DNA from: Tribonema minus
Lineage: Eukaryota > Sar > Xanthophyceae > Tribonematales > Tribonemataceae
DNA length: 64,000 nucleotides
Assembly (NCBI GenBank): GCA_017506865.1
Contig: JAFCMP010000468.1
Coordinates: forward strand, 1 to 64,000
Direction of reading: 5' to 3'
The notes beneath the pieces are model-generated. The model did no database searches, had not been told where the DNA came from, and saw nothing but the letters and a program-made list of their open reading frames with translations. Positions 27,032-51,500 of the stretch are shown piece by piece. Each line of letters starts with the position of its first letter. The stretch's first letter is position 1. The position numbers were made by a program, and so were the translations under genes.

Positions 27032-28267
27032 ATGATGGGAGCACGCATCCTGCTCGGTTTCGCCATGGCCCTAGCCACCGCGTACAGCTGCACGACAGAG
27101 GTGTGGCAGGCCGGTGGCGTGAAGAAATGCGTTGACCCCTGCGACTACAGCAATGTCATATGGGACAGGCACGGTGAGTGCAGTGCAATCCTCGACACTT
27201 GAATCAGCCACGACAGGCCAGCGCTTTGCGTGCAGGCCTGGTGTTAACCGCGTGAAAGCATTGGTGCACCAACGCTACTGCTGTACGAACGAGACCTCGC
27301 ACTAAGCTGCGCACCACTAGTAGATTAGGCGGCTCAGCAGTGTTTGCGCTTGGCTCCCCGCGGGACTACACTGCAACAGCAAGCCGGCTCGAGCTCATGC
27401 GCTCCATCTGCCGCCGTCTGCTGCCTGCCACAGGCAACGCCATGTGCCTGCAGTACCAACTGACAACAGGCGGTCAACAGATCTGGTGAGGCGCATCTCT
27501 GCCGATAGCAATTGCTGCTTGCATTTGTAGCATTGAAGAAAGATGCTCGCTGCATGCATGTACCGTGCGTGGTAAGCTTTCAGGGTACCTATTGAATGTT
27601 GAAGCTTGGTTTCGTCAAGAGATGATCTGCATGAGCTTCAAACCACCAAGGAGGCGCTACACCAAATCATGCCTGAATACATTTGAATGCCTGTGATCAT
27701 TCATGTAGTAAGATCCCGAATTGTGTCGCAGTCCTCCAGTACTTGAGCTCTTTTGTAGACATGTCAAGGAAGCCTTCGCAGATCTACTAGTATATACATG
27801 GCGTGCTCAGTGGGTGTGCAACAGGCGGTCTACTCTTTTGTGTAAAGGTCTTCAAAGCACTGACAGCTGCTTGGCCCCGTGTGCTCCAGATGTAATGCTC
27901 TAGCCCTTGCACACGCCATTCCGCGCATACATGAAGGCCATGCATCATTGTTGTTTCAGCGCAGTGAGCCGCATCGTATGTCTGCATTGGCGTTGCAGTG
28001 CCAGGCCTCAGCACTGCTGCCCAGAGCCGCTCTAACGCCGCTGTGACACCGCTTCCGCTGTCCTGCAGCCCGTGGTCCAACATCGCGTACGACGCCGACG
28101 GTACGCCGCTGTGCATGGTCTCACAGAACAATAAGGAGCTGTGCAAGACGTCCAGCATCGCCTACGACCACGCGCACCGGCCCGTGTGCGTGTCCACAGG
28201 CGACGGCTTCAGCTGCCCCGCCGAGAGGATCAGATACAATGACGCGCACGATCCCTACTGCGCGTGA
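27032..28267 (+). CDS. Secreted ten-cysteine protein with four C-x14-C modules, array copy 1
   Basis: Exons 27032-27173, 27434-27485 and 28069-28267 join in phase (1, 2) into 131 codons, giving 130 residues. MMGARILLGFAMALATAYS is a signal peptide. The mature part has ten cysteines and four modules with exactly 14 residues between the cysteines: CDYSNVIWDRHGNAMC, CPWSNIAYDADGTPLC, CKTSSIAYDHAHRPVC and CPAERIRYNDAHDPYC. The shared core is an Ile or Val, an aromatic-Asp (or Tyr-Asn-Asp) step, and a residue close to Pro before the last Cys. The exon 2/3 junction falls exactly at the start of module 2. No known family is recognised; a secreted disulfide-rich surface or wall protein is a reasonable guess. 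ATG 27032 is followed by a second ATG at 27035. Confidence 0.8.
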
Positions 28268-30567
28268 GCGCGCATGGCGGCGGCAACAGGCTCGAAGGTG
28301 CCGCAAGACTTGGTGGCTCGCTTCGCCCCATATACTGTTGCAGTGATCGTGTGCCCGCCTCAGTGCACACTGTGAGCCTAAACAAGGCGACCTTTGTACT
28401 GTACTGGGAGCTCAAACACGACAGGCCTTACTGCAGTTGTGTGTGTCATTGCTCAGCAAATGGGCATTGTAGTAGTGGTAGAGCCGTTCAATGGTGCCAG
28501 TTCAGGGTGGAGTTCAAGTCACGATGGCAGAAGTTGCCTGAGAGGTGTGTGTGTTGCTGTAGAGTGCTGTGCCACTGTGTGGAACCAGCGGGCAACAGCC
28601 ATGGCTTTGTGGTGAGGTTGGGCTGGCAGAGCACAAACTGTACAGTTAACACTTGAGAGTCGCGAAGCCGCTACCTGTTCCATGTGAAGGGGACACTGTG
28701 TGTGCCATCTTGTTGACTGCAGGTTATGTGTTGGCCGCTTTGTGAGCATTGATGAATGACAACCATTCCATATGAACTGATGTGCATCAGCTCTTTTGTC
28801 TGAGTGTTGTTCACGTGGAGCAAGACCAGGACATCCACTGACTTGGCTGTACATAGATTGGTATTTTTGTACACGCACTTGGTGGATGTGAGACTGGTGC
28901 AAGCATTATGCAGCAGATTGAATTGTTGCGTAAGCTCTACAGGCTGCCTGAATCGACACAGCTGCGCACCTGCGAAACCATACACGTGAGGCGCATGAAA
29001 CGTCAATGTGTTGGAGGCGAATGCCATAAACTTTGCAGGTTGCATACACTCAAGTATAGACTTGACGTTGAGCTGGAATGTGCTGGAGGCGAATGCCATA
29101 AGCTTCGCAGGTTGCATACTACACCTATGCAAAGACAGTGGAGTGCATGTCGAACCAACGAGAGCTGGCGTTCAATATGATTGACCTGAATTGCTGCATG
29201 AACATCACAACAAGCCAGTCAAGCGCCCCGCCTCATCCTACCCCGTCATGTGCTCGGTACTGTCATGCCAAGCGGACAACGCCCAAAAAGGCAGGTCCCG
29301 GAATGTAGTCATGGTCAGGCACAACTTCAGATTCAGGGGGAAGGTTGGTGCACGATGGCGCGCACGCATCGTGCCTCAGCCTCCACACCAGTTTCAAGAA
29401 CCTGCTTGTTAACAAGATGCGGCGGCGTGCAGGTGCCCATGGCGTGGGGGAACACGCCGTGACGCCGCCTCCCACGCAAGCTCACCCTCGAGGGCCCTCC
29501 CCTGCCGTGCCTGTAGTAGCCCAGCGCTGACAGGGCCCCCTGGTGCACATGAGTGGGGACCGCCGCAGACTCTGCACGCGCACAGCAGAGATACAGCGTG
29601 AGCACCCAAGTACATGCTCATGCAAGGCCACATAATGAGTGCACGATGGCGATGTGCATACCCGTCAGGAGTTGAAGTGAAGTTGTATCAAGCGTTCAGC
29701 CGCTCAGCATCCAGCGAACTTCAGCGAGGTAGCGGATGAAGTGATTTCACCCACTGACTCACTCACTCACTCACCCAATGACTCACCTTTCTGTGCTCAC
29801 GCCGCACCTTCCCCCACGAGCGCGCCAACAGCGCATAGCGGGCCCAGCGTGTGCCGAACTTCACAACAGCGCGGAGCCTGCTGTGCAGAGAAGCAGAGGT
29901 GGCGCCTGCATGGCACGAGTGTGTGCGCGTCTATAACGCAAGCCTTGCTCGGTCAAGCTCTACTGTGAATAGCTTAGCAGCCAATGCTGCAGCTGTGCAC
30001 TTGTGTACACGCCAACAGCTATGTGCCGCAGCGTTGTTGCACGGCGACGCTGCTGGCGCCTTCACTGTCGTCGCCTCCGCCGCAGCCGTCCGGGCAACGC
30101 CGCTACAAGAGTGCATATGCAGCAGCCGCATGCGCCGAGTCCAATGCTGAAGGGCGCCCGCCGCGGTGGTGCTGTCAGGCGGAGCACTGCCTTGCAAGTG
30201 CGACGCCTTGAAGTTACGCCATGGCCGTGTGCCCCCCACGTCGCAAGCGTCGTGAGCGCAAACGCCGCGCTGCGTGGGCTGCCGCACATGAGCGCGCCAG
30301 GCCACGCCACGCGTGCGCCGCTTGCGTCGACAGAGAGGCTCATTTGGCGCACACGGGGGCGAAGCGCGCGAGCGCGGCGCGTGTTCCCCCGGGGCCCCGC
30401 GGAGAGCGGGTGCTGCCGCCGCCGCGGACCGCGCCGCCGCGGCGTGTCGCAGCGCCGCATTCACACGCCCTGCGATTGCTGCGCGCTGTCGACGTGGCGT
30501 CGTACAGCGCTGCCACTGCTGGGCGCGCGCGCTCACGGCGGCGACGCTCTGGCGGCGGTGCTGAGCG

Positions 30568-30571
30568 CTGC

Positions 30572-30627
<56 letters not shown>
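30568..30627. repeat. CTG microsatellite in unit 1
   Basis: About 20 CTG units with one CTA. The unit 2 counterpart is 36347-36398. After the insert, the unit 3 counterpart is 47863-47917, where an internal stretch is inverted to CAGCAG. Confidence 0.9.
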
Positions 30628-30628
<1 letters not shown>

Positions 30629-31154
30629 GCTAGCGCTGCGCGTGGTACGCGGGCTCGAAGCCCTGCGCCACGGTGCGCGCTGCGCGGCGGCGCCTGCGGC
30701 GCCCAGCTCCGCGAGCAGCGCCGTCAGCAGCGCTCTGCGCGGCCGGTCGCCCATCCAGGTGACCTGGGGCTCTGAACGGCGCGAGCCTTTTCGTTTTTAG
30801 TCATGGCACGCACAAGCCTCCGTAGATGTAGTTACTGCAAAGCCCGATCTATCGTGTGCTCAGCCCATGCGGTCCAGGACATAAGTATACAGCTTCACTT
30901 CCTGAGGCGGGAGAGGTTGAAAAAAAAGTCTCAGGGTAAGGGCTACTTAGGGTTTGGGCCAGAAACCCTTTTTGGCGCTGATTGCCAGCGTGGTGGTGTT
31001 GATGTGCTAAGCGTGGCAGCACGGCTTAATGGCAATGCAGATGTAATCCCACAGCATGCCATATACCATAATCTCAATGCAACAGAAAACATGAGGTGGT
31101 GATGTTTTAGATTCAAGCAAATGTTGAGGCAATGGTCTCTGACTTGCTTTAAGC

Positions 31155-31220
31155 GCAACTTATAAAAGAGGCTCTCTGTTCCGGGTCGCTCGCCCCCCCT
31201 TCCTTCAGGAGGGGGGTGCT
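31155..31220 (+). promoter_or_regulatory. TATAAAAG plus C6/G6 hairpin at unit end
   Basis: ACTTATAAAAGAGGC is followed by a hairpin with arms CCCCCC and GGGGGG around TTCCTTCAGGA. The pair repeats at about 36930-36995 and 48455-48520. It could be a promoter for a transcript entering the next unit, but unit 1 has no such element upstream, so it is not required by copy 1 of the gene. Confidence 0.3.
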
Positions 31221-31631
31221 TGCTTGACGTCATGCGCCCTATTGTGCTCCTGGTCTTGATGACTTCACTTGCTTGTACATTGGGCAATTGTGGCCTTGTG
31301 AGCAAGTAAGTGGTGACGATGAACGGCTACCTTGCCACTTGGCAGTTAGCTACTTGGCAGTTACAGTCAACTATCAACCAAAAGCAGTTTCATAGCATGC
31401 CTGGTGTTTGTCAGAAACCAGAATCACTACAAATCACAGCAGAGCAGGCTTCGGGCCTGCCAGCGGTCTGCATCTTGAGCGGTCATCGCCAAAAAATGTA
31501 GTGCACGCATTGGTTTCAGCGCATCAACACATTTGACGCTTCAAACTCTTTCACTGTGGCTCAAAGCTCTGTGATTATCCTACAAAATATGCGGACGCCC
31601 AAACTGCCTGCACCACCACGCAATGACCGCG

Positions 31632-31740
31632 TGCGCCCAGGTGCTCAATGCAACGCATTTCGACCTGGTGGTCAATGCAACGCATTTCGACCTGTACGAC
31701 AATACAGGGCGAAATGCGTTGCATTGAGCACCTGGGCGCA
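31632..31740. mobile_element. Short palindromic element with 31-bp perfect terminal inverted repeats
   Basis: Ends at 31632-31662 and 31710-31740 are perfect inverted repeats beginning TGCGCCCAGGTGCTCAATGC. The other units lack the insert and read straight through CAATGACCGTGTCATGAG. The flanks suggest a short target duplication (ACCGCG/ACCGTG). The interior (about 31667-31705) matches the reverse complement of the right end of the element at 37873-38125, so this is a rearranged derivative of the same family. Confidence 0.7.
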
Positions 31741-32780
31741 CCACCGTGTCATGAGACCTGGAGGTGCCAAAAGACGCGCTGGAACAGGAGCCCAAACAGT
31801 GCCATAATGTGCATCCCACACAGCAGCAAAGAACGAGAAACGTCCTTGCATGATGTCACTAAAGCGATGCAAACGCAGCGGTGTGCTGAGGCAACGCAGC
31901 CCCAGCAGACCACCGCTTCGCAATCTCTACAGTAGAGCAATTGTTGTGGCCAGGGCCGCTCGTAACCACCCAGAACGGCTCCGTGCCAGATCAGGTGCTG
32001 CACGCGCACCGCCTCTAAGTTTAGCGCGTGCCCCGTCCGACTGTGCGCAGCGCGTTCCCCATGTACGCGTAACTGCCACCATGCCGTCGTAAAAAATCGT
32101 GATGTGGCATGCACGCAGTCGTCAAAAATCGTGATGTGGCATACGCGCAGTCGTCGCGCGCATCAACGGAGCTCAGCGCGTCAGTGCTCCGTGCATCGGC
32201 GTGTCGGTGTTCTAACGCGCCATGGCGTGCAGTCACTGCTCAGCTTGTCAACGCTCCGTGCGTGACCACTCAGCGCGTCAACGCTCAGCAAGTCATGGCG
32301 TGCGACGCTCAGCGCGTGCACATACCAAAAGCGTCAGCGCTTGATGCGTCAGCGCGCTGCATGCATGTGCGGCAACGAGCAAGTTTGTGGACCGTCAATG
32401 TTTTTGATCCGCCCGGGCCGCTGTAGTAATTACAAGGCTGACGCTGCCTGGTGTCAAAACATGACGGCATCGCTCAGCCAGAGCATGACGAGACACACTG
32501 TGGCATCCTAGCCCCCGTGCGTTTGAAAGTGATCATTTCTCGTGTGCTTGAATGAAAGTGATCATTTCTCGTATGCCGCCATCAAAGCCGACCAGCCAGA
32601 TCTTTCCCGCAAACGCCAGAAAAGGTGTGTCGGCCGTTGGACCGTTAAAGCCATCCTCGTGAGAGAAGGAAGGCAGCAGCGCCAGCGCTGCGCGGCTTCA
32701 TCAGGCACTCTTAGCTGCTCGAAGTCTTCAAGGCACACACCCTTCAAAGCTAGCAATCGTAGTCAAGACCGGGCAGCATC

Positions 32781-33982
32781 ATGATAGGAGCGCTCATCCT
32801 GCTCGGTCCCTCACCACCGCGTACAGCTGCACGACAGAGGTGTAGCAGGCCGGTGGCGTGAAGAAATGCCTTGACCCCTGCGATTACAGCAATGTCATCT
32901 GGGACAGACACGGTGAGTGCAGTGTAGCTCCCGACACTTGAACGGCTACTGAGGCCAGCGCTTTGCAAAGCGCATGAATGGATTGGTAAACCTGCGCTAC
33001 TCAAGCTGTGTGCATCAGTGATGTACGAAAGAAAGATTAACGCTGCTGCGCGCCATGAATAGAGTAGGCGGCTCAGCAGCGTTTGCGCTTGGCTCCGCGG
33101 AGCTGCACTGCACCAGCAATCAGGCTCGAGCTCAAACTTTTTATTTAAATCAATTGCCGCCGTCTGCTGCCTGCCACAGGCAACGCCATGTGCCTGCAGT
33201 ACCAGCTGACAACAGGCGGTCAACAGATCTGGTGAGGCGCATCTCTGCCGATAGCCATTGCTGCTCAACGCACTGACCGGTGCATGGCTCCGTGTGCCCC
33301 GAAAAGGAGTGCTCTACCCCATGCGCACGCCACACAGCGCATACATGAACTCCAAGCATCATTGTTGTTTGTCAGCGCACATGCCCGGGGCAAGCAGTAT
33401 GGCATCGTGCTCCCGGCACCAGTGATCACGACGGGCATTGCGCCTCCTTGTGAACACAACATGATGCACTGATGTTCAACTTGCTCTCATCGGATGCAAA
33501 GTGGTAGATTTTGGTCAAGGGCTACTGAGTGTGGCTACTACTAGTAAGTATTCATGATGCATTGTATTGTTGCCCGCATTCCACCCCATGCAGCCTCACT
33601 GAATTTACAAGCGGAAGCTTCGACGGCGCCCCAGCTCCACAAGCCTCGCAAGCACGACCCTTACATAGCTACATGCCTGAGCCACATCATAGTATGCTGC
33701 ATAAGCTTTGCAGTGCCAGGCCTTCGCACCGCTGCCCAGTCCGACCCCTAACGCCACTGTGACGCCGCTCCGCTGCCCTGCAGCCCGTGGTCCAACATCG
33801 CGTACGACGCCGACGGTACGCCGCTGTGCATGGTCTCACAGAACAATCAGGAGCTCTGCAAGACGTCCAGCATCGCCTATGACCACGCGCACCGGCCCGT
33901 GTGCGTGTCCACAGGCGACGGCTTCAGCTGCCCCGCCGAGAGGATCAGATACAACGACGCGCACGACCCCTTCTGCGCGTGA
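32781..33982 (+). pseudogene. Cys-module gene, array copy 2, exon 1 ruined
   Basis: The counterpart exons are 32781-32912, 33180-33231 and 33784-33982. Exon 1 is 10 bases shorter than in the other copies, with loss inside the signal-peptide region, and the family frame also meets a TAG where other copies have TGG in EVWQAGG. Exons 2 and 3 remain open and closely match the other copies; exon 3 differs by NNQELC and DPFC. Either this copy is recently dead, or it starts elsewhere and its product is not secreted the same way. Confidence 0.75.
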
Positions 33983-36344
33983 GCGTGCCGCACGGCGGCG
34001 GCAACGTGCTCGAGGGTGCCGCAAGACTTGGTGGCTCGCTTCGCCCCATATACTGTTGCAGTGATGGTGTGCCCGCCTTTTGCGCACACTGTGAGCCTAA
34101 ACAAGGCGACCTTTGTACTGTACTGGGAGCTCAAACACGACAAGCCTTACTGCCGTGGTGCGTGTCATTGCTCAGCACATGGGCATTGTAGTAGTGGTAG
34201 AGCCGTTCATTGGTGCCAGGTCAGGGTGGAGTTCAAGTCACGATGGCAGAAGTTGCCTGAGAGGTGTGTGTTTTGCTATAGAGTGCTGTGCCGCTGTGTG
34301 GAACCAGCGGCCAACGGCTATGGCTTTGTGGTACTAGTAGGGTTGGGCTGGTGGAGCACACACTGTACAGTAAAGAAGAGAGAGGAGCGGGGCTGCCATC
34401 TGTTCATGTAAAGGGGACACTGTGCGTGCCATCATGTTGACTTGTGAGGTATATTTGACGCGTGAACGCGTTTTTCAAGCTGCCCCGTGGGTTTGCTATG
34501 CAGCTGCAGAGTGTGCAACGGCTGCGTTGTGAGCATTGGTGAATGACAACTATACTACATGAACTGATGTGCATCAGCTCTTTTGTCTGATGGATGTTCA
34601 CATTGAGCCAGACCAGGACATCCATAGACTTGGCTGTACATAGATTGGTAACTTCAGCCACGCAGATGGTGAATGTGACACGGTGCAAGCGTGATGCAGA
34701 TTGAGTTGTTACGTAAGCTCTGCAGGCTGCCTAAACCGACACAGCTGCGCACCTGGTCAAATCATGAATGTGAGGCACGTTAACCTTGAAATGTATTGGA
34801 GGCAAATGTCATGAACTTTGCAGGTTGCATACACTCGAGTATAGACTTGAAGTTAAGCTGGAATGTGCTGGAGGCGAATGCCATAAGCTTCGCAGGTTGC
34901 ATACTACACCTATGCATAGACAGCGGAGTGCATGTCGAACCAACAAGAGCTGGCATTCAACATGATTGACCTGAATTGCTGCATGAAGATCACAACAAGC
35001 CAGTCAAGCGCCCCGCCTCATCCTACCCCGTCATGTGCTCGGTACTGTCATGCCAAGCGGACAACGACCAAAAAAGCAGGTCCCGGAATGTAGTCATGGT
35101 CAGGCACAACTTCAGATTCAGGGGGAAGGTTGGTGCACGATGGCGCGCACGCATCGTGCCTCAGCCTCCACACCAGTTTCAAGAACCTGCTTGTTAACAA
35201 GATGCGGCGGCGTGCAGGTGCCCATGGCGTGGGGGAACACGCCGTGACGCCGCCTCCCACGCAAGCTCACCCTCGAGGGCCCTCCCCTGCCGTGCCTGTA
35301 GTAGCCTAGCGCTGACAGGGCCCCCTGGTGCACATGAGTGGGGACCGCCGCAGACTCTGCACGCGCACAGCAGAGATACGGCGTGAGCACCCAAGTACAT
35401 GCTCATGCAAGGCCACATAATGAGTGCACGATGGCGATGTGCGTACCCGTCAGGAGTTGAAGTGAAGTTGTATCAAGCGTTCAGCCGCTCAGCATCCAGT
35501 GAACTTCAGCGAGGTAGCGGATGAAGTGATTTCACCCACTAACTCACTCACTCACTCACTCAATGACTCACCTTTCTGTGCTCATGCCGCACCTTCCCCC
35601 ACGAGCGCAACAACAGCGCATAGCGGGCCCAGTGTGTGCCGAACTTCACAACAGCACGGAGCCTGCTGTGCAGAGAAGCAGAGGTGGCGCCTGCATGGCA
35701 CGAGCGTGTGCGCGTCTATAACGCAAGCCTTGCTCGGTCGAGCTCTACTGTGAATAGCTTAGCAGCCAATGCTGCAGCTGTGCACTTGTGTACACGCCAA
35801 CAGCTATGTGCCACAGCGTTGTTGCACGGCGACGCTGCTGGCGCCTTCACTGTCGTCGCCTCCGCCGCAGCCGTCTGGGCAACGCCGCCACAAGAGTGCA
35901 TATACAGCAACCGCATGCGCCGTGTCCATAGCTGAAGGGCGCCCGCCGCGGTGGTGCTGTCAGGCGGAGCACTGCCTTGCAAGTGCGACGCCTTGAAGCT
36001 ACGCCGCGGCCGCGTGCCCCGCGCCTCGCGAGCGACGTGAGCGCGCAAGCCGCGCTGCGTGGGCTGCCGCACATGAGCGCGCCAGGCCACGCCACGCGTG
36101 CGCCGCTTGCGTCGACAGAGAGGCTCATTTGGCGCACACAGGGGCGAAGCGCGCGAGCGCGGCGCGTGTTCCCCTCCGCGGAGAGCGGGTGCTGCGGCCG
36201 CCGCGGACCGCGCCGCCGCGGCGTATCGCAGCGCCGCATTCACACGCCCTGCGATTGCTGCGCGCTGTCGACGTGGCGCCGTTGAGCGCTGCCACTGCTG
36301 GGCGCGCGCGCTCACGGCGGCGACGCTCTGGCGGCGGTGCTGAG

Positions 36345-36398
<54 letters not shown>

Positions 36399-37872
36399 GG
36401 CGCTAGCGCTGCGCGTGGTACGCAGGCTCGAAGCCCTGCGCCACGGTGCGCGCTGCGCGGCGGCGCCTGCGGCGCCCAGCTCCGCGAGCAGCGCCGTCAG
36501 CAGCGCTCTGTGCGGCCGGTCGCCCGTCCAGGTGACCTGGGACTCTGAAGGGCGCGAGCCTTTTCGTTTTTAGTCATGGCACGCACAAGCCTCCGGAGAT
36601 GTAGTTACTGCAAAGCTTGATCTATCGTGTGCTCAGCCCATGCGGTCCAGGACATGAGTATACAGCTTCACTTCCTGAGGCGGGAGAGGTTGAAAAAAAG
36701 GTCTCAGGGTAAGGGCTACTTAGGGTTTGAGCCAGAAACCCTTTTTGGCGCTGATTGCCAGCGTGGTGGTGTTGATGTGCTAAGCGTGGCAGCACGGCTT
36801 AATGGCAATGCAGATGTAATCCCACAGCATGCCGTATACCATGATCTCAATGCAACAGAAAACATGAGGTGGTGATGTTTCAGATTCAAGCAAATGTTGA
36901 GGCAATGGTCTCTGACTTGCTTTAAGCGCAACTTATAAAAGAGGCTCTCTGTTCCGGGTCGCTCGCCCCCCCTTCCTTCAGGAGGGGGGTGCTTTCTTGA
37001 CGTCATGCGCTCTATTGTGCTCCTGGTCTTGATGTAACCTCCCTTGCTTGTACATTGGGCATTTGTGGCCTTGTGAGCAAGTAAGTGGTGACGATGAACA
37101 GCTACCTTGCCACTTGGCAGTTAGCCACTTGGCAGTTACAGTCATCTATCAAACTTAAAATAGTTTCTCAGCATGCCTGGTGTTTTTCGGAAACCAGAAT
37201 CATCACAACTTGCAGGAGAGCAGGCTTCGGGCCTGCCAGCGGTCTCCATCTTGAGCGGTCATCGTCAAAAAATGTAGATGCATGCATTGGTGCCAGCATA
37301 TCAACAAATTCGACACTTCAAGCTCTTTCTCTGTGGCTCAAAGCTCTGTGATTATCCTACAAAATATGCGGATGCCCAAACTGCCTGCACCACCATGCAA
37401 TGACCGTGTCATGAGACCTGGAGGTGCCCAAGACGCGCTGGGACAGGAGCCCAAACAGTGCCATAAGGTGCATGCCACACAACAGCAAAGAACGAAAAAC
37501 GTCCTTGCATGATGTCACTGAAGCGATGCAAACGCAGTGGTGTGCTGAGGCAGCGCAGCCACGGCAGACCACCGCTTCGCAATCTCTCCACTAGAGCCGT
37601 TGTTGTGGCCAGAGTTGCTCCTGGACACCTGAGAACGGCTCCGTGCCTGATCAAGTGCTGCACGCGCACCGCCTCAAAGTTTAGCGCGTGCCCCGTCTGT
37701 GCGCAGCGCGTTCCCTATGTGCGGGTAACTGCCACCATGCCGTCGTCAAAAATCATGATGTGGCATGCGCGCAGTCGTCAAAAATTGTGATGTGGCATAC
37801 GCGCAGTCGTCGCGCGCATCAACGGAGCTGAGCGCGTCAGTGCTCCGTGCATCGGCGTGTCGGCGTTCTAAC

Positions 37873-38125
37873 TGTAGTGAGGCAACCCTAGGTGGAGCAG
37901 TAGTTGAAGTAGGGCTTGCAGTGCGAATGCCTTTTGTGCAGTAATCAGACACGACTTTAACCTTCAACATGGCACAGCTTCTTCTGCTTCTACCTGTTTA
38001 GCCAAGCTTGCATATCAGGGTGATATTGCACTTGGGCAGGGCGCTCCGGTCCACCTCCCACGGCACCAGGCAGTGGGCATTGTCGTACAGGTTGAAATGC
38101 GTTGCATTGACCACCTGGGCGCACA
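37873..38125. mobile_element. 253-bp short mobile element in unit 3
   Basis: Units 1, 2 and 4 read TTCTAACGCGCCATGG at this place. Here the insert starts TGTAGTGAGGCAACC and ends CTGGGCGCACA, with TAAC on both sides as a likely 4-bp target duplication. TG...CA ends with a short duplication would fit a solo terminal repeat of an LTR-type element or a MITE-like element; it has no coding capacity. Its right end is shared with the element in unit 2. It looks young, since it post-dates the unit duplications. Confidence 0.65.
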
Positions 38126-38652
38126 TAACGCGCCATGGCGTGCAGTCAGTGCTCAGCTTGTCAGCGCTCCGTGCGTGACCACTCAGCGCGTCAGCGCTCA
38201 GCAAGTCATGGCGTGCGACGCTCACCGCGTGCACATACCAAAAGCGTCAGCGCTTGATGCGTCAGCGCGCTGCATGCATGTGCGGCAACGAGCAAGTTTG
38301 TGTGGACCGTCAATGTTTTTGATCCGCCCGGGCCGCTGCAGTAATTACAGGCTGACACTGCCTGGTGTCAAAACATGACGGCATCGCTCAGCCAGAGCAT
38401 GACGAGACACACTGTGGCATCCTAGCCCGCGCACGTTGAAAGTGATCATTTCTGGTATGCCGCCCAGCCAGATCTTTCCCGCAAACGCCAGAAAAGGTGG
38501 GTCGAGCGTTGGACCGTTAAAGCCACCCCCGTGAGAGAAGGAAGGCAGCAGCGCCAGCGCTGGCGCGGCTTCATCAGTCACTCTTAGCTGCTCGAAGTCT
38601 TCAAGACACACAGTCTTTAAAGACTCGCAATCGTAGTCAGACCGGCACCACC

Positions 38653-39883: not shown

Positions 39884-42116
39884 GCGTGCCGCACGGCGGC
39901 GGCGACGCGCTTATGGGTGCCGCAAGCAATGGTGGCTTGCTTTGCGCCCCGTGGCCACTGTTGCAGCGACTCTGTGCCCGCCTTCTGCGTTCCGACTGCA
40001 GTACTGTGAGCTCAAACAAGCCTGGGCCTTCCGCACGGAGCGTCTGTGCAGTTCCGCTGTGTGTAATTGCTCAGCACATGCACACTGTAGTAGTGGCCTC
40101 TAGTAGTTGCAATGATAGAAGTAGCGTGCTAGTGAGATGTCAAGTCACAATGGCAGAAGTTGCCTGAGAGGTGTGTGTTTTGCTGTAGAGTGCTGTGCCG
40201 CTGTGTGACACCAGCGGGCAACAGCCATGGCTTTGTGATGAGGTTGGGCTGGCAGAGCACAAACTGTACAGTGAACACGCGAGAGTCGCGAAGCCGCCAC
40301 CTGTTCCATGTGAAGGGGACACTGTGTGTGCCATCTTGTTGGCCGCTTTGTGAGCATTGATGAATGACAACCATTCCATATGAACTGATGTGCATCAGCT
40401 CTTTTGTCTGAGTGTTGTTCACGTGGAGCAAGACCAGGACATCCACTGACTTGGCTGTACATAGATTCGTAACTTTGTACACGCACTTGGTGGATGTGAG
40501 ACTGGTGCAATCATTATGCAGCAGATTGAATTGTTGCATAAGCTCTACAGGCTGCCTGATTCGACACAGCTGCGCACCTGGTCAAATCATGAATGTGAGG
40601 CACATGAAATGTCACTGTGTTGGAGGCGAATGCCATAAACTTTGCAGGTTGCATGGGACATTGTGTATAAACTAAACGTTAAGCTGGAATGTGCTGGAGG
40701 CGAATGCCACAAGCTTCGCAGGTTGCATACTACACCTATGCAAAGACAGTGGAGTGTATGTCGAACCAACGGGAGCTGGCATTTAATATGATTGACCCGA
40801 ATTGCTGCATGAAGATCACAACAAGCCAGTCAAGCGCCCCGCCTCATCCTACCCCGTCATGTGCTCGGTACTGTCATGCCAAGCGGACAACGCCCAAAAA
40901 GGCAGGTCCCGGAATGTAGTCATGGTCAGGCACATCTTCAGATTCAGGGGGAAGGTTGGTGCACGATGGCGCGCACGCATCGTGCCTCAGCCTCCACACC
41001 AGTTTCAAGAACCTGCTTGTTGACAAGATGCGGCGGCGTGCAGGTGCCCATGGCGTGGGGGAACACGCCGTGACACCGCCTCCCACGCAAGCTCACCCTC
41101 GAGGGCCCTCCCCTGCCGTGCCTGTAGTAGCCCAGCGCTGACAGGGTCCCCTGGTGCACATGAGTGGGGACCGCCGCAGACTCTGCACGCGCACAGCAGA
41201 GATACGGCGTGAGCACCCAAGTACATGCTCATGCAAGGCCACATAATGAGTGCACGATGGCGATGTGCGTACCCGTCAGGAGTTGAAGTGAACTTGTATC
41301 AAGCGTTCAGCCGCTCAGCATCCAGTGAACTTCAGCGAGGTAGCGGATGAAGTGATTTCACCCACTAACTCACTCACTCACTCACTCAATGACTCACCTT
41401 TCTGTGCTCATGCCGCACCTTCCCCCATGAGCGCGCCAACAGCGCTTAGCGGGCCCAGCGTGTGCCGAACTTCACAACAGCGCGGAGCCTGCTGTGCAGA
41501 GAAGCAGAGCTGGAGCCTGCATGGCACGAGCGTGTGCGCGTCTATAACGCAAGCCTTGCTCGGTCGAGCTCTACTGTGAATAGCTTAGCAGCCAATCCTG
41601 CATCTGTGCACTTGTGTACACGCCAACAGCTATGTGCCACAGCGTTGTTGCACGGCGACGCTGCTGGCGCCTTCACTGTCGTCGCCTCCGCCGCAGCCGT
41701 CTGGGCAACGCCGCCACAAGAGTGCATATACAGCAACCACATGCGCCGTGTCCACAGCTGAAGGGCGCCCGCCGCGATGGTGCTGTCAGGCGGAGCACTG
41801 CCTTGCAAGTGCAACGCCTTGAAGCTACGCCGCGGCCGCGTGCCCCGCGCCTCGCGAGCGACGTGAGCGCGCAAGCCGCGCTGCGTGGGCTGCCGCACAT
41901 GAGCGCGCCAGGCCACGCCACGCGTGCGCCGCTTGCGTCGACAGAGAGGCTCATTTGGCGCACACGGGGGCGAACCGCGCGAGCGCGGCGCGTGTTCCCC
42001 TCCGCGGAGAGCGGGTGCTGCGGCCGCCGCGGACCGCGCCGCCGCGGCGTATCGCAGCGCCGCATTCACAAGCCCTGCGATTGCTGCGCGCTGTCGACGT
42101 GGCGCCATTGAGCGCT

Positions 42117-42386
42117 CCCCAAGTCAAAAAGGCCAAGACGGCGAAGCCATGGCGTCAGCCGGCGCTTGCGTCGGACGATATCCTGTTCCAGGACGAGTTA
42201 TTCAATCTTCTTTTGTCCCGTCCCGGTTTTGTTTCGACGGGCGATATGCCAGAAATTACCTTGAAGGAAGCGATACAGTTCTTCGGGGAAGCCCTCACCG
42301 ACAACTCCAAAGAATTCTGGCTCCCTGCGGCTCTGTACGACCAGCTACAGGCACTTGCCAAGAAAGCCAACAGGCTCCCCTTTTGA
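42117..42386 (+). CDS. C-terminal piece of an unrecognised protein, cut at the left junction
   Basis: The frame reads PQVKKAKTAKPWRQPALASD, then DELFNLLLSRPGFVSTGDMP, then an acidic/helical part ending KKANRLPF and a stop at 42386. It has normal amino-acid composition, unlike the low-complexity frames of the array. Its start is missing because the array sequence abuts it directly. No family is recognised. Confidence 0.45.
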   Translation, partial: PQVKKAKTAKPWRQPALASDDILFQDELFNLLLSRPGFVSTGDMPEITLKEAIQFFGEALTDNSKEFWLPAALYDQLQALAKKANRLPF

Positions 42387-42632
42387 ATGAACGCACTTTA
42401 GGGTCTATGCACTGTTGAGCTTACGCTGTTTGCAAATGTGACACGGCTTGCACTGTTGAGCTTTTGCAGCTGAATGCGCTTCTGGCCAACAGAATTGTCT
42501 CTGTGCTGTGTCGTATGCGTGCGCTGTTTGCACATATGATGCAGAGTTGCGACGAAAAAAAAATATGCAAGATAGGTCAACAGCGTTGCAGATGCCGACG
42601 ATGACCACATGACCTGCAACCAGTTTGCGGAT

Positions 42633-43035
42633 GCAGCGGGGCTACGATTACTGGGATGACATCATCGGCGAGTGCATCCAGAACCCCGGCGACATTGTGA
42701 GCGTCGTCAACGAGACCAATGAGACTCGCACCTGCTACACTCGCAATACGCTCGAGCGCCACTTCAAGGCACAGATCACATAGCGCATCGCGGAGAAGTA
42801 TGATATTACCGGCACGCAGGTCTTCGGCCCGAACCGCGAGGCCATGTCGTGGGCGCAGCTGGGCGCTCTGGGCATCGAGTACACGCCCTCTGTCTCCGAG
42901 ATGGAGGACATCGACACCGCGTGGGGGGAGCTTGATGACAAGCTCACGCCGCAGCAAGTGCAGGACAAGCTTCAGGAGCTGCAGAGCATGGCTGCAACAC
43001 CGGAGCAGATCGCCGCATGGCAAGCATCGCACTGA
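42633..43035 (+). pseudogene. Unrecognised protein-like segment, apparently broken
   Basis: Starts MQRGYDYWDDIIGECIQNPG and includes CYTRNTLERHFKAQ, then FGPNREAMSWAQLG, ending in a helical segment TPQQVQDKLQELQSM with a stop at 43035. The composition is that of a real globular protein, but the segment is not one continuous open frame. No family is recognised and the origin is unknown. Confidence 0.4.
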
Positions 43036-43069
43036 ACTGTGGTGCGCTCAAAACGACGGTTTCATGTTT

Positions 43070-43088
43070 CGAACCCTAACCCTAGCCG
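43070..43088. repeat. Short CCCTAACCCTA remnant before the beta-helix gene
   Basis: Two telomere-type units about 200 bp before the start. Confidence 0.5.
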
Positions 43089-43280
43089 TGACCTTTCCAG
43101 TGACGTAGAACTTAAGGTCGCTGTCGATCGCATGTATTGCGCAGCAGTATTTTCTCAGCCAACCCTCACAACTAGCCTACCCAAAGATGTCGAGGTGTCT
43201 CACATACAGAGTTTGAACATTGCGCAGCGTGGGATTTTCACTCGACAAATGAAGCTAAGTGACCCACAGACAGATGCCTC

Positions 43281-46200
43281 ATGCAACAACCTTTTAAGTT
43301 TTTTGTACGTCCTTTCAGAAATTTCTCCTGCCGCATCAGTGCAGCTTGTACTCGAGGCGCCATGGCCTGTGCGGTGATAGCATGGCTGATAGGAATCGTC
43401 TTGACGGTGGCTGCCGGATATGTTCCGACCAAGTGCCTCTTGGCTCCCCAGACCATGGTGGTGGACGGGCCCGCGAGCGCTGGCGCCCTGACGACTGCAG
43501 CAGCTTGTGCCAATGCAACCATTGACGTGACATGGCGAGGCGACGTGACGATCCGGCAGCAGATCGTTGTGGGTAATGGGACCACGATGCGCATGAGCGG
43601 CGCCGCATCTTCTAGTGTCATGAGAGGTCACCTCCGAGGCAGCAATCGGTTGATGGTCGTCTCTCGAGGAGCCGACGTCACGCTCGACAGCATGCACCTG
43701 ACGAACGTCAATTACTCCCGAGGAGGGGCAGTCCTTGTTGGTGAAAACGGGCGACTGACCCTGCAGTCGTGCTTCCTGTCGAACAACACCGGTTTCGTAT
43801 CCGGAGGCGCCATATCCAGTACAGGCGGCGTTGTCGTCGCGCGTGGGTCGACGTTTATCAACAACTATGTTGATGATGGTGACTATAGTAGCGGGGGTGC
43901 TATAGACCTCTCAGATGGTACTTTGATTTTGCTGTACTCGACTTTCGTGAACAACACGGCTTACTACGGTGGAGGCATCAGCGTCGATACGGCCATCGTG
44001 CGAGCCTCAACATTTTCTGGTAATCGAGCAACATGTGAGCATTGTCATGGCGGCATGTAATGAATATTGCTCGCTCACTTTTTGTGCATTTGCCGCACAT
44101 CTACTTGACAATGCTTGCGGCAGCAGGGTGAGCCCTGGATCCATGCACCGCATTGTGTCGTTGTCGCTTAGCCTACCTCAGTAGTACCTCATCAGAGGAT
44201 ATTGCTTGAGCCTCAGCTGGACGAATGCGACTGCGCCCCGTGTGTCACGAGCCCATAATCTGTACATGTGCTACCTAGTAGTACGTGCTTGCGGGTTCAG
44301 GAGGAGCCGTGTATGCTTATAGGGATGCATTTTCGTGATAATTGAACAGCATACTCTGCCTGTGTCACAGCATCAGGAGGAGCCGTGTATGCAGATGGCG
44401 ACGCCTTCTTCAGGGATTCCTTTTTTGCCGACAATGTAGCAGGTAAGTCAATGCGCGTAATCGGTTTATTTAATAATATGCCAATCTGCGTGCTCCAATC
44501 ATTACGTGTGTAGCGCAGGTTTCATCGCAGCTGCCATTCTGCGTTGTCCGATCACGAAGTGTTCCATATCAAGCGCTTTCAAATTGGTGGCTGGTCTCCA
44601 CTGAGTCTCACTGCCATGGCCACATCTCTCACCGCACATTTGCCCTGTGCGCATTGTGCAGGTGCACGAGGTGGAGCTATTTTTGGAGGTAGCCGCTCAC
44701 TGTCTGTGATGAACTCGACTGTTGAGGGAGACAAAGCAGGTAAAATCTGTGCGGTCGATCACATCTTGGTGCGTGCTTTCATGCAATGACAGTGGCCGCG
44801 GCCGTCAGGACAAAATTGACACGCGTCATCCCCATTGAGGGTCACTTTGTATTTCGCAGGTCGTACTGGAGGCGGGCTGTATGTCCACATCGGGAAGCTT
44901 ACGATAGCCGACTCCAGTCTGATCAACAACAAAGCAGGTTGGTTCTGCGTGCGTGCAGCGCTGTTAATGGTGGACGCCGGCGCGGTCCCATCCGTACTCA
45001 CAGCTGAAAAGCCTTTGCCGCGTGCAAGCTTCGGCGATATTCGCGCTGTCCTGCTCTTCGGCATGACCTGTCATACTATCGCGCTGCGATTGCAGGAAAT
45101 GGTGGAGCTATTGCCATTGGCGTCGGCATCCTGAATGTGGCAAACTCGAGGTTAACTGGCGACGCTGCAGGTGATGTCCGGACGTTTGCGGCGTGCTTGC
45201 AGCGCACATGAGCCAGCCTTACGATGATTGCCGACGTTGCGGTGTTGCTGTGCAGACGCACAAGCCGGACAAGGTGGTGCTATCCGACTGCTGACCCATG
45301 CAGAATTACTGTCGTCGTCTAGGTTCAGTGCGGCAACCTCAAGCACATCACGGAGCTCGTCAACGACTTCATTTGACTCGTATGAGTACCAACTTCCACA
45401 GTGATCGGCCAGCTTTTGAACTGCACATTCGAGGGCAACACGGCTGCTTTCGGAGGCGCGATCGCCATTCAGTGGGAGCTTCATAACTTCAATGTGAGCC
45501 AGTGTGTTTTCTCCGATAATTCTGCGTGGGCCGGCGGGGGCGGCGCCATCCTTCAGGTCGGAGAATACGACACCTTGACCATCGACGTCAACGCCGACTC
45601 GTCTTTTGAGGGCAACAGCGCGCACTGTTGCTATGCCGGCGGGATCCATATTGGTGTAGGGTCCTCATGCGTCGACGCGGATTCTGGGTATGGGACAAAC
45701 TGGTGAGTGCACATTTGATTTCACCTGCAGCAAACGCGTCGATGCGCGTGCCTCACCTGTCACATGCTCGTTGCTGTTCGCAGGCCATGCTGCGGTGCCG
45801 GCACGTATATTAGGACAGATGCGATTGGGCCCGCATGCGTGCCGTGCACCGCTGACACGGTGGACTGCACCGCAGTCGGCGCGACGCTGCTGACCCTGCC
45901 GCTTTCACCGGGCTACTGGAGAGAGAACGACGCCATGGTTCCCAGCATCATCAGGGCGTGTCCCAATCGCCAAGCTTGTGTGGGCGGCACGGGCGTCTCG
46001 GACTGGACTCAGGAGGCTGGAGTGTGGAGACTCAGTCCGGGCTGGTCGGCGGATGCGTATTGCGCTACGGGATATCAGGGACCATGTAAGTGGCACTGAC
46101 TCTTGTTGCACCTGCCGGCGATCCATACCTCACTCTTTCTTTCGTCCGCTCGTAGATTGCGCCGTGCGCGCTGACGGCTACGCGGCGGTGACGGGCTACA

Positions 46201-47456
46201 AGTGCGTGGAATGCACTTCCGGCATCGTGGGAGCCGTCGTCGTCGGCATGGTAGTCCTCTTCGCCGTCGTGGGCTTGGGTCTTTGGGTCCTGTTCGCGGC
46301 GGCATCGGGACTGGGGGAAGGCGCCGACGCCACGAGCACCTTCGCAGCCGCGAGCGGCACGCTGAAGCTAGCGCAGGCCTGCGTGATCGTCGCGAGACAC
46401 CTGCGGACCCCGGTAATCGTGATGCAAATCCTGACCCAGTTCGTCAGCATCACCGGCGTCGCCCTGCCGCTGCAGTACCTCGACTTCCTGCAGGTCATGG
46501 ACCTGATCTCGCTGGACCTGCGGTGGCTGACTTCTCCCGAGTGCGTGCTGCACCTCAGCTTCTACCAAAGACTGCTCCTGACCACGCTGGTCCCGCTGGG
46601 CATAGCCGGAGTCATATTCGCTCCGCGCGCGTACCGCTGGTGCAGGCCGCGGTCCGTCGGCGCCAAGCTGCAGCGCGTGTGCGAGCAGGACCTGCACGTT
46701 CTGCTGGTGTTCGCCTTCCTCGTCTACTCGGGCGTCTCCCTGACGATATTCCAGACCTTTGCCTGCGACAACCTCGAATACGACGGCCCAGACGGCACGT
46801 GGTACCTCCGCGCGGACTACAGAATTCAGTGCCGCACGCCGGAACATGCAGCGTATGGTATCTATGCCGCGGTCATGTTGCTGGTGTACCCGTTAGGCAT
46901 CCCTGCGGCATTTGCCTGGATGATCAGGCTGGGCGCCGCCGACGTCCGCGAGCGCTCTGCGCTGACGGCCGCAACCTCCTTCCTGCGCAAGCCGTACTCA
47001 TCTCACGCCTCCTACTGGGAGTGCGCGGAATGCTTGCGGCGGCTGCTGCTGGCGGGCCTTCTCGTCTTCATCATGCCCGGCGAGGCGGGACAGACGGCGA
47101 TGGCGTGCGTCTTCGCCGTATTCGCCGGCATGGTCTACGAGTCCGTTCGACCTCACGAGGAGACGGGCGAGGAGTGGCTTTATAGACTCGGCTACGGCAT
47201 TATTGCAGCGAGCATGCTCACTTCGCTGTTGATACAGGTCAAGTACGTCGACGAGTACAGTCAGGACGCCATTGGCAAGCTGCTCATAGCGCTCAATGTG
47301 ATATTGTTAGTCGCAGCGTTTACTCAGGCGTTCCTAGTATACCGGAAAGTCAAGACAACGGCAGGCCCCTGGGCCATACGTCAAAACTCCTGGTTAGGGC
47401 TGCGCAGGCGCGAAACGCCGCACCTACAAGAGGTCGAGCCGGCCCCCACTTCCTGA
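43281..47456 (+). CDS. Large beta-helix (Pmp-like repeat) protein with C-terminal multi-pass membrane domain
   Basis: Exons: 43281-44034 (start at ATG 43281 or, better for a signal/anchor, ATG 43362), 44371-44442, 44662-44739, 44860-44937, 45096-45170, one starting at 45256, 45402-45702, 45784-46085 and 46156-47456. Phases match everywhere except the junction between 45256 and 45402, which is unresolved. The N-terminus has a hydrophobic anchor, followed by parallel beta-helix repeats of the polymorphic-outer-membrane type (SGGAISS, SGGAIDL, RGGAIFGG, FGGAIAI). Exons 2-5 each encode one rung and are 72-78 bases long, all phase 1. A Cys-rich membrane-proximal part (CCGAGTY, CVPCTADTVDC, GYKCVECTSG) leads into about eight or nine transmembrane helices. 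Similar beta-helix/7TM-like surface proteins are, as I recall, expanded in haptophytes and stramenopiles; the function is unknown (adhesion or sensing is inferred). Confidence 0.85.
44296..44345 (+). repeat. Decayed duplicate of beta-helix gene exon 2
   Basis: TCAGGAGGAGCCGTGTATGC, the start of exon 2 at about 44373, also occurs at about 44304, followed by a drifted version of the exon and a stop. It lies in the intron just before exon 2 and appears unused. Confidence 0.7.
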
Positions 47457-47619
47457 TTTCTTTGCTGTGCGCGTTAATACATTTGTGCTTTACCCTGTGC
47501 ATGTGCGAGCTCGCGCAACAACTCTGCCGTCTTGCACGGCAATAAAATTTGATGTGTATATGCATTGTGCACACGGAGGTAGGTAGGAGATGTATGTGGT
47601 GTCATATTGCGTGCACGAG

Positions 47620-47817
47620 TCACGCGGTGTCCGCGTCGACGGCAGCATCCTCGACAGCGGCCGTGGCGGCGGCCTCAGCCGTGCGCTGCCTGTCGACCTC
47701 TTCGAGGCGCTCGATCATGTCGCGCTTCTGTCCCTTGACGTGGTCAATGTACGAGTCGCGAATGCTCTGGATACGCGAGTCCGTGAACTGCACGTTGTCG
47801 ATCTGGGTCACGTCTGG
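47620..47817 (-). CDS. C-terminal exon of an unrecognised protein, cut at the right junction
   Basis: Minus-strand frame VTQIDNVQFTDSRIQSIRDS, then a helical stretch (VKGQKRDMIERLEEVDRQ), then an Ala/Asp-rich tail with the stop at 47620. A CCCCCAG before the first codons could be an acceptor, but the array sequence begins there, so upstream exons are probably lost. The composition suggests a coiled-coil tail. No family is recognised. Confidence 0.45.
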   Translation of the reverse strand, partial: PDVTQIDNVQFTDSRIQSIRDSYIDHVKGQKRDMIERLEEVDRQRTAEAAATAAVEDAAVDADTA

Positions 47818-48525
47818 GGGCGCGCGCTCACGGCGGCGACGCTCTGGCGGCGGTGCTGAGCGCTGCTGCTGCTGCTGCTGCAGCAGCTGCTGCTGCTGCT
47901 GCTACTGCTGCTGCTGCGCTAGCGCTGCGCGTGGTACGCGGGCTCGAAGCCCTGCGCCACGGTGCGCGCTGCGCGGCGGCGCCTGCGGCGCCCAGCTGTG
48001 CAAGCAGCGCTGTCAGCAGCGCTCTGTGCGGCCGGTCGCCCGTCCAGGTGACCTGGGGCTCTGAAGGGCGCGAGCCTTTTCTTTTCTAGTCATGGCACAC
48101 ACAAGCCTCCGTAGATGTAGTTAATGCAAAGCCCGATCTATCGTGTGCTCAGCCCATGCGGTCCAGGACATGAGTATACCGTACAGCTTCACTTCCTGAG
48201 GCGGGAGAGGTTGAAAAAAATGTCTCAGGGTAAGGGCTACTGAGGGTTTGAGCCAGAAACCCTTTTTGGCGCTGATTGCCAGCGTGGTGGTGTTGATGTG
48301 CTAAGCGTCACGGTGGCAGCACGGCTTAATGGCAATGCAGATGTAATCCCACAGCATGCCGTATACCATGATCTCAATGCAACAAAAAACATGAGGTGGT
48401 GATGTTTCAGATTCAAGCAAATGTTGAGGCAATGGTCTCTGACTTGCTTTAAGCGCAACTTATAAAAGAGGCTCTCTGTTCCGGGTCGCTCGCCCCCCCT
48501 TCCTTCAGGAGGGGGGTGCTTTCTT

Positions 48526-51500
48526 GACGTCATGCGCTCTATTGTGCTCCTGGTCCTGATGTATCTTCCCTTGCTTGTACATTGGGCAATTGTGGCCTTG
48601 TGAGCAAGTAAGTGGTGACGATGAACAGCTACCTTGCCACTTGGCAGTTAGCCACTTGGCAGTTACAGTCATCTATCAATTTGAAACTTATATATAGTTT
48701 CACAGCGTGCCTGGTGTTTTTCGGAAACCAGAATCATCACAACTTGCAGGAGAGCAGGCTTCGGGCCTGCCAGCGGTCTCCATCTTGAGCGGTCATCGCC
48801 AAAAAATGTAGATACATGCATTGGTGCCAGCATATCAACAAATTCGACACTTCAAGCTCTTTCTCTGTGGCTCAAAGCTCTGTGATTATCCTACAAAGTA
48901 TGCGGATGCCCAAACTGCCTGCACCACCATGCAATGACCGTGTCATGAGACCTGGAGGTGCCCAAAGACGCGCTGGAACAGAAGCCCAAACAGTGCCATA
49001 ATGTGCATGTCACACAACAGCAAAGAACGAAAAACGTCCTTGCATGATGACGGTCACCATAGCACTTCAAACGCAAGCAGTGTGCTGAGGCAACGCAGCC
49101 GCGGCAGACCACCGCTTCGCAATCTCTACAGTACAGCAATTGTTGTGGCCAGGGCCGCTCCTGGACACCTGAGAACGGCTCCGTGCCTGATCAAGTGCTG
49201 CACGCGCACCGCCTCAAAGTTTAGCGCGTGCCCCGTCTGTGCGCAGCGCGTTCCCTATGTGCGGGTAACTGCCACCATGCCGTCGTCAAAAATCATGATG
49301 TGGCATGCGCGCAGTCGTCAAAAATTGTGATGTGGCATACGCGCAGTTGTCGCGCGCATCAACGGAGCTCAGCGCGTCAGTGCTCCGTGCATCGGCGTGT
49401 CGGCGTTCTAACGCGCCATGGCGTGCAGTCAGTGCTCAGCTTGTCAGCGCTCCGTGTGTGACCACTCAGCGCGTCAGCGCTCAGCAAGTCATGGCGTGCG
49501 ACGCTCAGCGCGTGCGCATACCAAAAGCGTCAGCGCTTGATGCGTCAGCGCGCTGCATGCATGTGCGGCAACGAGCAAGTTTGTGTGGACCGTCAATGTT
49601 TCTGATCCGCCCGGGCCGCTGCAGTAATTACAGGCTGACGCTGCCTGGTGTCAAAACATGACGGCATCGCTCAGCCAGAGCATGACAAGACACACTGTGG
49701 CATCCTAGCCTGCGCACGTTTTGAAGTGATCATTTCTGGTATGCCGCCCAGCCAGATCTTTCCCGCAAACGCCAGAAAAGGTGGGTCGAGCGTTGGACCG
49801 TTAAAGCCACCCCCGTGAGAGAAGGAAGGCAGCAGCGCCAGCGCTGGCGCGGCTTCATCAGTCACTCTTAGCAGCTCGAAGTCTTCAAGACACACAGCCT
49901 TCAAAGACTCGCAATCGTTGTCAGACCGGCACCACCATGATGGAAGCACGCATCCTGCTCGGTTTCGCCATGGCCCTCACGACCGCGTACAGCTGCACGA
50001 CAGAGGTGTGGCAGGCCGGTGGCGTGAAGAAATGCGTTGACCCCTGCGACTACAGCAATGTCATATGGGACAGGCACGGTGAGTGCAGTGCAATCTTCGA
50101 CACTTGAATCGGCCACGACAGGCCAGCGCTTTGCGTGCAGGCCTGGTGTTAACCGCGTGAAAGCATTGGTGCACCAACGCTACTGCTGTACGAACGAGAC
50201 CTCGCACTAAGCTGCGCACCACTAGTAGATTAGGCGGCTCAGCAGTGTTTGCGCTTGGCTCCGCGCGGGACTACACTGCAACAGCAAGCCGGCTCGAGCT
50301 CATGCTTTCCATCTGCCGCCGTCTGCTGCCTGCCACAGGCAACGCCATGTGCCTGCAGTACCAGCTGACAACAGGCGGTCAACAGATCTGGTGAGGCGCA
50401 TCTCTGCCGATAGCAATTGCTGCTTGCATTTGTAGCATTGAAGAAAGATGCTCGCTGCATGCATGTACCGTGGTAAGCTTTCAGGGTACCTATTGAATGT
50501 TGAAGCTTGGTTTCGTCAAGAGATGATCTGCATGAGCTTCAAACCACCAAGGAGGCGCTCCACCAAATCATGCCTGAATACATTTTAATGCCTGTGATCA
50601 TTCATGTAGTAAGCTCTTAAATTGAGTCGCAGTCCTCCAGTACTTGAGCTCTACTGTAGGCATGTCAAGGAAGCCTTCGCAGATCTACTAGTATACACAT
50701 GGCGTGCTCAGTGGGTGTGCAACAGGCGGTCTACTCTTTTGTGTAAAGGTCTTCAAAGCACTGACAGCTGCTTGGCGCCGTGTGCTCCAAATGTAATGCT
50801 CTAGCTCTTGCACACGCCATTCCGCGCATACATGAAGGCCATGCATCATTGTTGTTTCAGCGCAATGAGCCGCATCGTATGTCTGCATTGGCTTGCAGTG
50901 CCAGGCCTCAGCACTGCTGCCCAGAGCCGCTCTAACGCCGCTGTGACGCCGCTTCCGCTGTCCTGCAGCCCGTGGTCCAACATCGCGTACGACGCCGACG
51001 GTACGCCGCTGTGCATGGTCTCACAGAACAATAAGGAGCTGTGCAAGACGTCCAGCATCGCCTACGACCACGCGCACCGGCCCGTGTGCGTGTCTACAGG
51101 CGACGGCTTCAGCTGCCCCGCCGAGAGGATCAGATACAATGACGCGCACGATCCCTACTGCGCGTGAGCGCGCATGGCGGCGGCAACGTGCTCGAGGGTG
51201 CCGCAAGACTTGGTGGCTCGCTTCGCCCCATATACTGTTGCAGTGATCGTGTGCCCGCCTCTTGCGCACACTGTGAGCCTAAACAAGGCGACCTTTGTAC
51301 TGTACTGGGAGCTCAAACACGACAGGCCTTACTGCAGTTGTGTGTGTCATTGCTCAGCAAATGGGCATTGTAGTAGTGGTAGAGCCGTTCATTGGTGCCA
51401 GTTCAGGGTGGAGTTCAAGTCACGATGGCAGAAGTTGCCTGAGAGGTGTGTGTGTTGCTGTAGAGTGCTGTGCCACTGTGTGGAACCAGCGGGCAACAGC

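Follow-up and report, generated by a model that had tools for sequence, protein, structure and literature searches.

A tandem gene family of probably secreted C-x14-C repeat proteins in the alga Tribonema minus

What do the repeated cysteine-rich genes on contig JAFCMP010000468.1 (C468) of the alga Tribonema minus encode, and why are they present in several copies? The window (here the whole stretch of DNA that was analyzed, C468:1-64000, 64,000 bases within a 158,181,000-base genome of 554 contigs) carries a three-exon gene in four tandem copies on the plus strand, three of the four being intact (Table 1). The answer that we favor, with a little under even confidence, is that the family may be a secreted disulfide-hairpin repeat protein of 16-residue C-x14-C modules. 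Such a protein would be soluble and would serve the cell coat or extracellular matrix as a structural or adhesive component, with the tandem copies supplying it in quantity. The copies were located by tblastn with the assembled protein, and the resulting exon spans, all on the plus strand (27032-28264, 32801-33979, 38653-39880 and 49937-51164), are each followed directly by the stop codon. Exon lengths in the intact copies are 142, 52 and 199 bases, stop codon included; intron 1 is in phase 1 and falls within the first module, and intron 2 is in phase 2 and interrupts module 2 at its first cysteine, whose codon it divides (TG|C). An earlier annotation of this DNA (hereafter the original prediction) held that four gene copies encode the protein, which is true of copies 1, 3 and 4 but not of copy 2, where the start is lost and exon 1 has an in-frame TAG. 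It had correctly noticed a real gene family, of which one of the four window copies is dead and which proved wider than was noted.

The protein of the intact copies has 130 residues and ten cysteines, at positions 20, 33, 37, 52, 65, 80, 90, 105, 114 and 129, with 12, 3, 14, 12, 14, 9, 14, 8 and 14 residues between consecutive cysteines. The module consensus across the window copies is about C-x3-[NSR]-[IV]-x-[YW]-[DN]-x6-C, 16 residues in length. Four module core sequences had been proposed for all copies, and these are exact in copies 1 and 4, whereas copy 3 has SNIAYDAAGTPLC and ERIKYNDAHDLYC instead. Only two residues separate copies 1 and 4; both lie in the signal region, which leaves the mature proteins of these copies identical, and the mature protein of copy 3 differs from that of copy 1 at three residues. 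The modules resemble one another well beyond chance: when each of the four 14-residue modules was shuffled individually, the observed sum-of-pairs BLOSUM62 score of 89 was reached or exceeded in 0 of 20,000 shuffles (shuffled mean -78, standard deviation 20). This signal comes chiefly from pairs other than modules 1 and 4, which on their own show no resemblance (score -7, 0 identities). The N-terminus is hydrophobic in the intact copies, in keeping with the signal peptide of the original prediction, and by hydropathy the protein is probably secreted; no further strongly hydrophobic stretch appeared beyond it in the hydropathy windows sampled. The mature protein is acidic, with an isoelectric point (pI) of 5.4, a mass of 12.3 kDa and 12 D/E against 8 K/R residues.

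Are these genes maintained by selection? Eleven close copies were compared, four in the window, four on C55 and one each on C515, C377 and C540, and GT donors, AG acceptors and intron phases agree in all eleven. The C377 and C540 translations are identical, and this copy is broken by an in-frame TAG. Contig C377 (17,689 bases) and the end of C540 also share match scores, gene structure and the in-frame stop, and the two may be a single locus represented twice in the assembly, through either an unmerged haplotype or an assembly duplicate. A ten-row codon alignment was built with C540 excluded and with window copy 2 and C377 retained, their stop codons skipped. The ratio of nonsynonymous to synonymous substitution rates (dN/dS) is 0.07-0.39 in 45 of 45 pairs and 0.07-0.14 among the four open C55 copies. 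Fisher tests on the two pairs tested gave p = 1.2e-6 for copy 1 against C515 and p = 2.4e-7 for copy 1 against one of the C55 copies (C55b). Between copy 1 and C515, the two introns share 64% and 47% identity. All ten cysteines are retained in every alignment row. An extra cysteine is present in the mature part of one C55 copy (C55d), where it adjoins the last cysteine, and of C515, and in the signal region of five rows. Variation is greatest in module 4 (9 of 14 positions), linker 2 (5 of 9) and linker 3 (4 of 8). With dN/dS low in every pair and no row lacking any of the ten cysteines, the alignment indicates that these are real genes under purifying selection.

The original prediction had also attributed the amplification to selection for dose or diversity. 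Selection for diversity is not supported for the window cluster, where copies 1 and 4 share one mature protein and dN/dS lies well below 1. The cluster is better explained by dose, or by neutral tandem duplication with gene conversion, and dose is favored over diversity because two window copies encode identical mature proteins.

How far does the family extend? At least 15 loci were found on nine contigs: the window and C55 have four each, C377 and C540 together have two, and C515, C533, C163, C18 and C135 have one each. This is a lower bound, as only the best candidates were scored. A search with the C515 protein found exon 3 of C533 at 46% identity (E-value, E, 5.5e-9) and a first exon on C163 (E 1.2e-4), with weaker matches on C163, C18 and C135. 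The C533 gene is spliced at the same two positions and encodes a 134-residue protein with modules of 14, 14, 14 and 13 and with ten cysteines downstream of an N-terminal hydrophobic region. C163 has a first and a last exon of the same kind as the close copies and one module with a spacing of 21, and C18 and C135 have a first exon of the CVDPC or CLDPC kind followed by module-bearing exons, and look like longer mosaics in which module spacing is about 11-19 (counted manually on the translations). The exact x14 spacing of the original prediction thus holds for all four modules of the close copies but not for the wider family, where 14 is the commonest spacing among distant relatives and about 11 to 21 occurs. 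The first-exon signature of a likely signal peptide, a cysteine, CVDPC or CLDPC, and a module 1 split by a phase-1 intron is found in the intact close copies and C533; the first exons on C163, C18 and C135 have a GT donor in the same phase, with variable spacing before CVDPC or CLDPC. Weak matches on C3, C524, C279, C512, C90 and C146 (E 0.056 to 4.05) were left uncounted, and inspection of the C146 stretch found no clear module frame.

The most interesting part of the family is its split-cysteine exon design. On C135, AG acceptors lie directly 5' of the last base of a cysteine codon and of the module starts CPW, CPM and CPP, TG|GT donors lie 3' of module exons, and exons near 544.3-544.6 kb and near 542.7-543.0 kb have both the split-codon acceptor and the split-codon donor. 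Since some introns split the first cysteine codon of a module (TG|C), module exons could be added in frame, and the split codons of C135 could be read as growth by exon duplication. Taken further, the family could be an undescribed algal extracellular repeat fold of disulfide-stapled hairpins, in which symmetric exons bounded inside a cysteine codon (TG|C) allow growth by whole modules through exon duplication without breaking the staples, giving small amplified proteins and long mosaics from one part; we regard this larger proposal as possible and somewhat doubtful. If the exon logic and the hairpin fold were both true, this would be a clear case of an extracellular repeat protein arising and lengthening within one algal lineage.

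The favored explanation can be set out in steps. A likely signal peptide would export the protein from the cell, with no hydrophobic stretch downstream. Each module would be a short beta-hairpin stapled by its own two cysteines, and linkers of 8-12 residues would join the modules into a compact, protease-resistant chain. Tandem copies would supply this coat or matrix building block in bulk, under selection for dose, and the longer relatives would be multi-exon mosaics of the same modules, made by duplicating exons that start and end in a split cysteine codon. Support comes from the same splice sites and phases in the 11 close copies and in C533, even though exon 3 of the latter shows only 46% identity. 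A building block that is abundant outside the cell would fit better than a diversifying effector, because an acidic, probably secreted, cysteine-rich repeat under purifying selection has been amplified with its mature protein little changed. It also offers a concrete protein to seek in the extracellular fraction of the alga.

The structure prediction proposed as a check in the original prediction was run with AlphaFold (AF2) on the exon-3 peptides of the four window copies, which are 95-100% identical. The exon-3 model has a strand pair in each module, I-x-Y with P-x-C, with low confidence (mean predicted local distance difference test, pLDDT, 69.5; predicted template modelling score, pTM, 0.43), and suggests one hairpin per module. 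The top three rows of a Foldseek search with this model were a Tc B-C entry and two teneurin entries (E 0.34, 1.1 and 1.5, probability at most 0.18), which we take to be RHS/YD-repeat proteins; such rows would suit a hairpin repeat and prove no relation.

Does the module resemble anything already described? The Furin-like or EGF-receptor cysteine-rich domain is a short beta-hairpin with one disulfide, arranged in series. Its serial hairpin modules are like those proposed here, and its preceding close cysteine pair may be comparable to CVDPC; unlike it, the family gave no row for this Pfam domain in seven of seven queries and its profile had no PDB match up to E 10, and the within-hairpin disulfide is a feature of that domain whereas the pairing here is putative. 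RHS/YD repeats (teneurins, Tc-complex shells) share Y-D-x2-G with some modules of the window family and occupy the top Foldseek rows, but the best of these reached only E 0.34 and probability 0.18, the Pfam RHS trace (E 0.076, on C18 only, one of seven queries) lies below its cut-off, and RHS repeats are not known to have a paired-cysteine staple. The choline-binding repeat domain (C-LytA) likewise has repeated short hairpins and appears at Foldseek ranks 46 and 47; it differs in its weak match (E 6.4, probability 0.06) and in its repeat motif, which is not known to have disulfides. The Peritrophin-A/CBM14 chitin-binding domain has a CPxGLxFDx5C segment that resembles CPAERIRYNDAHDPYC, but its spacing and cysteine order are other ones, and it is absent among the Pfam rows listed.

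Library searches agree with the original prediction, which knew of no described family with this pattern, as no convincing match was found in Pfam, NCBIfam, PHROGs or PDB sequences. In Pfam-A, nothing exceeded the curated cut-off for copy 1 and six relatives or pieces (seven queries), with rows reported up to E 10 for copy 1 (three rows) and up to E 1 for the other six, and with the HMMER filters dropping most matches above about E 0.1. The best trace was Cyclophil_like (15.2 bits against a cut-off of 27; E 0.02 in C533 and 0.097 in copy 1), and other traces below cut-off were ZirS_C (0.049), DUF6970 (0.17), NCD3G (0.067), Cytochrom_B559a (0.14) and hNIFK_binding (0.17). NCBIfam gave a weak FibBindPlpA trace (E 0.099) in one of four members, and PHROGs gave 35349 (E 0.0092), 17101 (E 0.048) and 4641 (E 0.55), each in one of four members, none a convincing relative. 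In PDB sequences, copy 1, the A2 family profile and the last exon of C135 had no match up to E 10. A C135 unit matched two computer-designed proteins (E 0.00017 and 0.0018), which were rejected as relatives since a designed protein can have no kinship; these matches look like a composition effect. No relative was confirmed in prokaryote genome contigs (73 pattern stretches) or viral contigs (21 and 28 pattern stretches), each scanned with two short peptide patterns that distant relatives could escape, and tblastn of C533 against phages gave no match at E <= 1. On these short-pattern scans and tblastn, a viral or bacterial source was rejected. No description of the C-x14-C module was found in the literature searched, which lacked most subscription journals, or in passages of PMC11685980. 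Secreted disulfide-rich repeat proteins are a known kind, and the C-x14-C module matched no library searched, so that as far as searched the family is an orphan of a known kind.

How did the copies arise? They are DNA-level duplications and not retrocopies, because introns and flanks were copied too. The repeat periods are 5.7 and 5.9 kb, and 11.3 kb across an insert that interrupts unit 3 at 42120-47813; in unit coordinates, the match picks up again no more than five bases from the break. When 3,601 bases of the unit served as the query, long matches on C468 and diverged pieces on C377 and C540 (75-91%) appeared among the best 40 of 771 candidates scored. In copy 3, a tract at about 39870-40170 is 72-81% identical to copies 1 and 4, with adjoining stretches at 95-99%. 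Between copies 1 and 2, identity is 95-97% over exon 3 but drops to about 50% over much of intron 2. These patterns suggest gene conversion in the cluster, the copy 3 tract possibly coming from another copy. It is possible that the tandem copies are neutral, the outcome of segmental duplication and gene conversion with one or few copies that matter, an explanation compatible with the others. The entire unit has been duplicated, non-coding sequence too, one of four window copies is dead, the C377/C540 copy has its TAG, and the divergent tract of copy 3 is such as gene conversion leaves; set against this, three window copies are intact and four more are open on C55 with the low mutual dN/dS given above.

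Returning to the coat or matrix building block, several points weigh against it. No direct evidence singles out coat or matrix from another extracellular role. The broken copies, one of four in the window and that of C377/C540, mean that copy number may be partly neutral, and gene conversion makes dS within the window cluster unreliable and not a clean clock. The fold and disulfide pairing drawn from the AF2 model are unproven: the input was shallow (four sequences that are 95-100% identical), scores across the five models run from 40.6 to 69.5, and Foldseek with the exon-3 model gave none at E <= 0.001 (118 rows at E <= 10, of which the best 50 were inspected). Among the longer relatives, the middle exon of C163 was not recognised, and the gene models of C135 and C18 are incomplete.

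Two other roles outside the cell were weighed. A role in defence or competition, as a secreted antimicrobial, anti-grazer factor or protease inhibitor whose stapled loops would show binding residues to a target and whose copies would raise the dose, suits a small, cysteine-rich, probably secreted and tandemly amplified protein with its greatest variation in module 4 and in linkers 2 and 3; we consider it rather unlikely, given that the mature protein is acidic and so unlike typical cationic antimicrobials, that whole-gene dN/dS has no sign of diversifying selection and that no inhibitor family occurs among the three Pfam rows of copy 1 up to E 10. The size, likely signal peptide and soluble form would also be compatible with a part in signalling or mating, the small disulfide-rich protein being secreted as a ligand for a receptor on neighbouring cells; this is improbable in that at least 15 loci and longer multi-module relatives suit a building block better than a specific ligand. 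It is very improbable that the exons are chance reading frames, thrown up by repeated DNA rich in GC: 240 open frames of at least 60 residues overlap the stretch and the models were read from sequence, but an artefact of this kind is rejected in view of splice sites and phases conserved down to 46% identity, all ten cysteines kept, and low dN/dS indicative of purifying selection.

Table 1. Positions of the gene copies, exons and tandem array in the window
Feature	Position	Strand	Reading
Copy 1, intact	27032-28267	+	Three-exon reading, 130 residues
Copy 1 exon 1	27032..27173	+	Likely signal peptide, C20, C33, C37, start of module 1; phase-1 donor GTGAGTGC
Copy 1 exon 2	27434..27485	+	End of module 1 (C52) and linker; terminal TG| within the C65 codon
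Copy 1 exon 3	28069..28267	+	Modules 2-4 and stop codon; first base is the last base of the C65 codon
Copy 2, pseudogene	about 32801..33982	+	No start; exon 1 has an in-frame TAG, but the splice sites and exon 3 can be read
Copy 3, intact	38653..39883; exons 38653-38794, 39055-39106, 39685-39883	+	130 residues
Copy 4, intact	49937..51167; exons 49937-50078, 50339-50390, 50969-51167	+	130 residues
Tandem array	25630..52122	+	Units of about 5.7 kb bearing the four gene copies; broken by a non-unit insert, 42120-47813

Other features of the window were recorded alongside the genes. Within the insert at 42120-47813 (~5.7 kb) are a long hydrophobic frame and an open frame that matches the Chlamydia-PMP repeat (PF02415, E 1.4e-5); DNA related to the insert is present on many contigs at 64-88% identity (best 40 of 47 candidates scored). 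Inside a tandem unit, ~300 bases at about 30930-31226 belong to a dispersed repeat that recurs on many contigs with 72-90% identity, and GCT triplet arrays of about 18-21 units occupy the same place in three tandem units (30567-30628, 36346-36398 and 47862-47917). Beyond the array lie an interstitial telomere-like array (TAACCC x 5.5) at 58738-58770, an 83-base unit repeated twice with 98% matches at 59038-59202, and an open frame at 61800-62756 with an HTH_Tnp_4 (DDE endonuclease) match above cut-off (E 1.8e-7). For the haptophyte Phaeocystis globosa, CCCTAA telomeres and a guanine-plus-cytosine (GC) content of 64.6% are reported (PMC11347835); the GC content of the window is nearer 55-65% in 2-kb steps. 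Antenna motifs in the genome such as AEIKHARLAM, which belong to chlorophyll a/c antennae, suggest an alga with a red-type plastid, and 92 exon-level matches to light-harvesting proteins point to a photosynthetic eukaryote.

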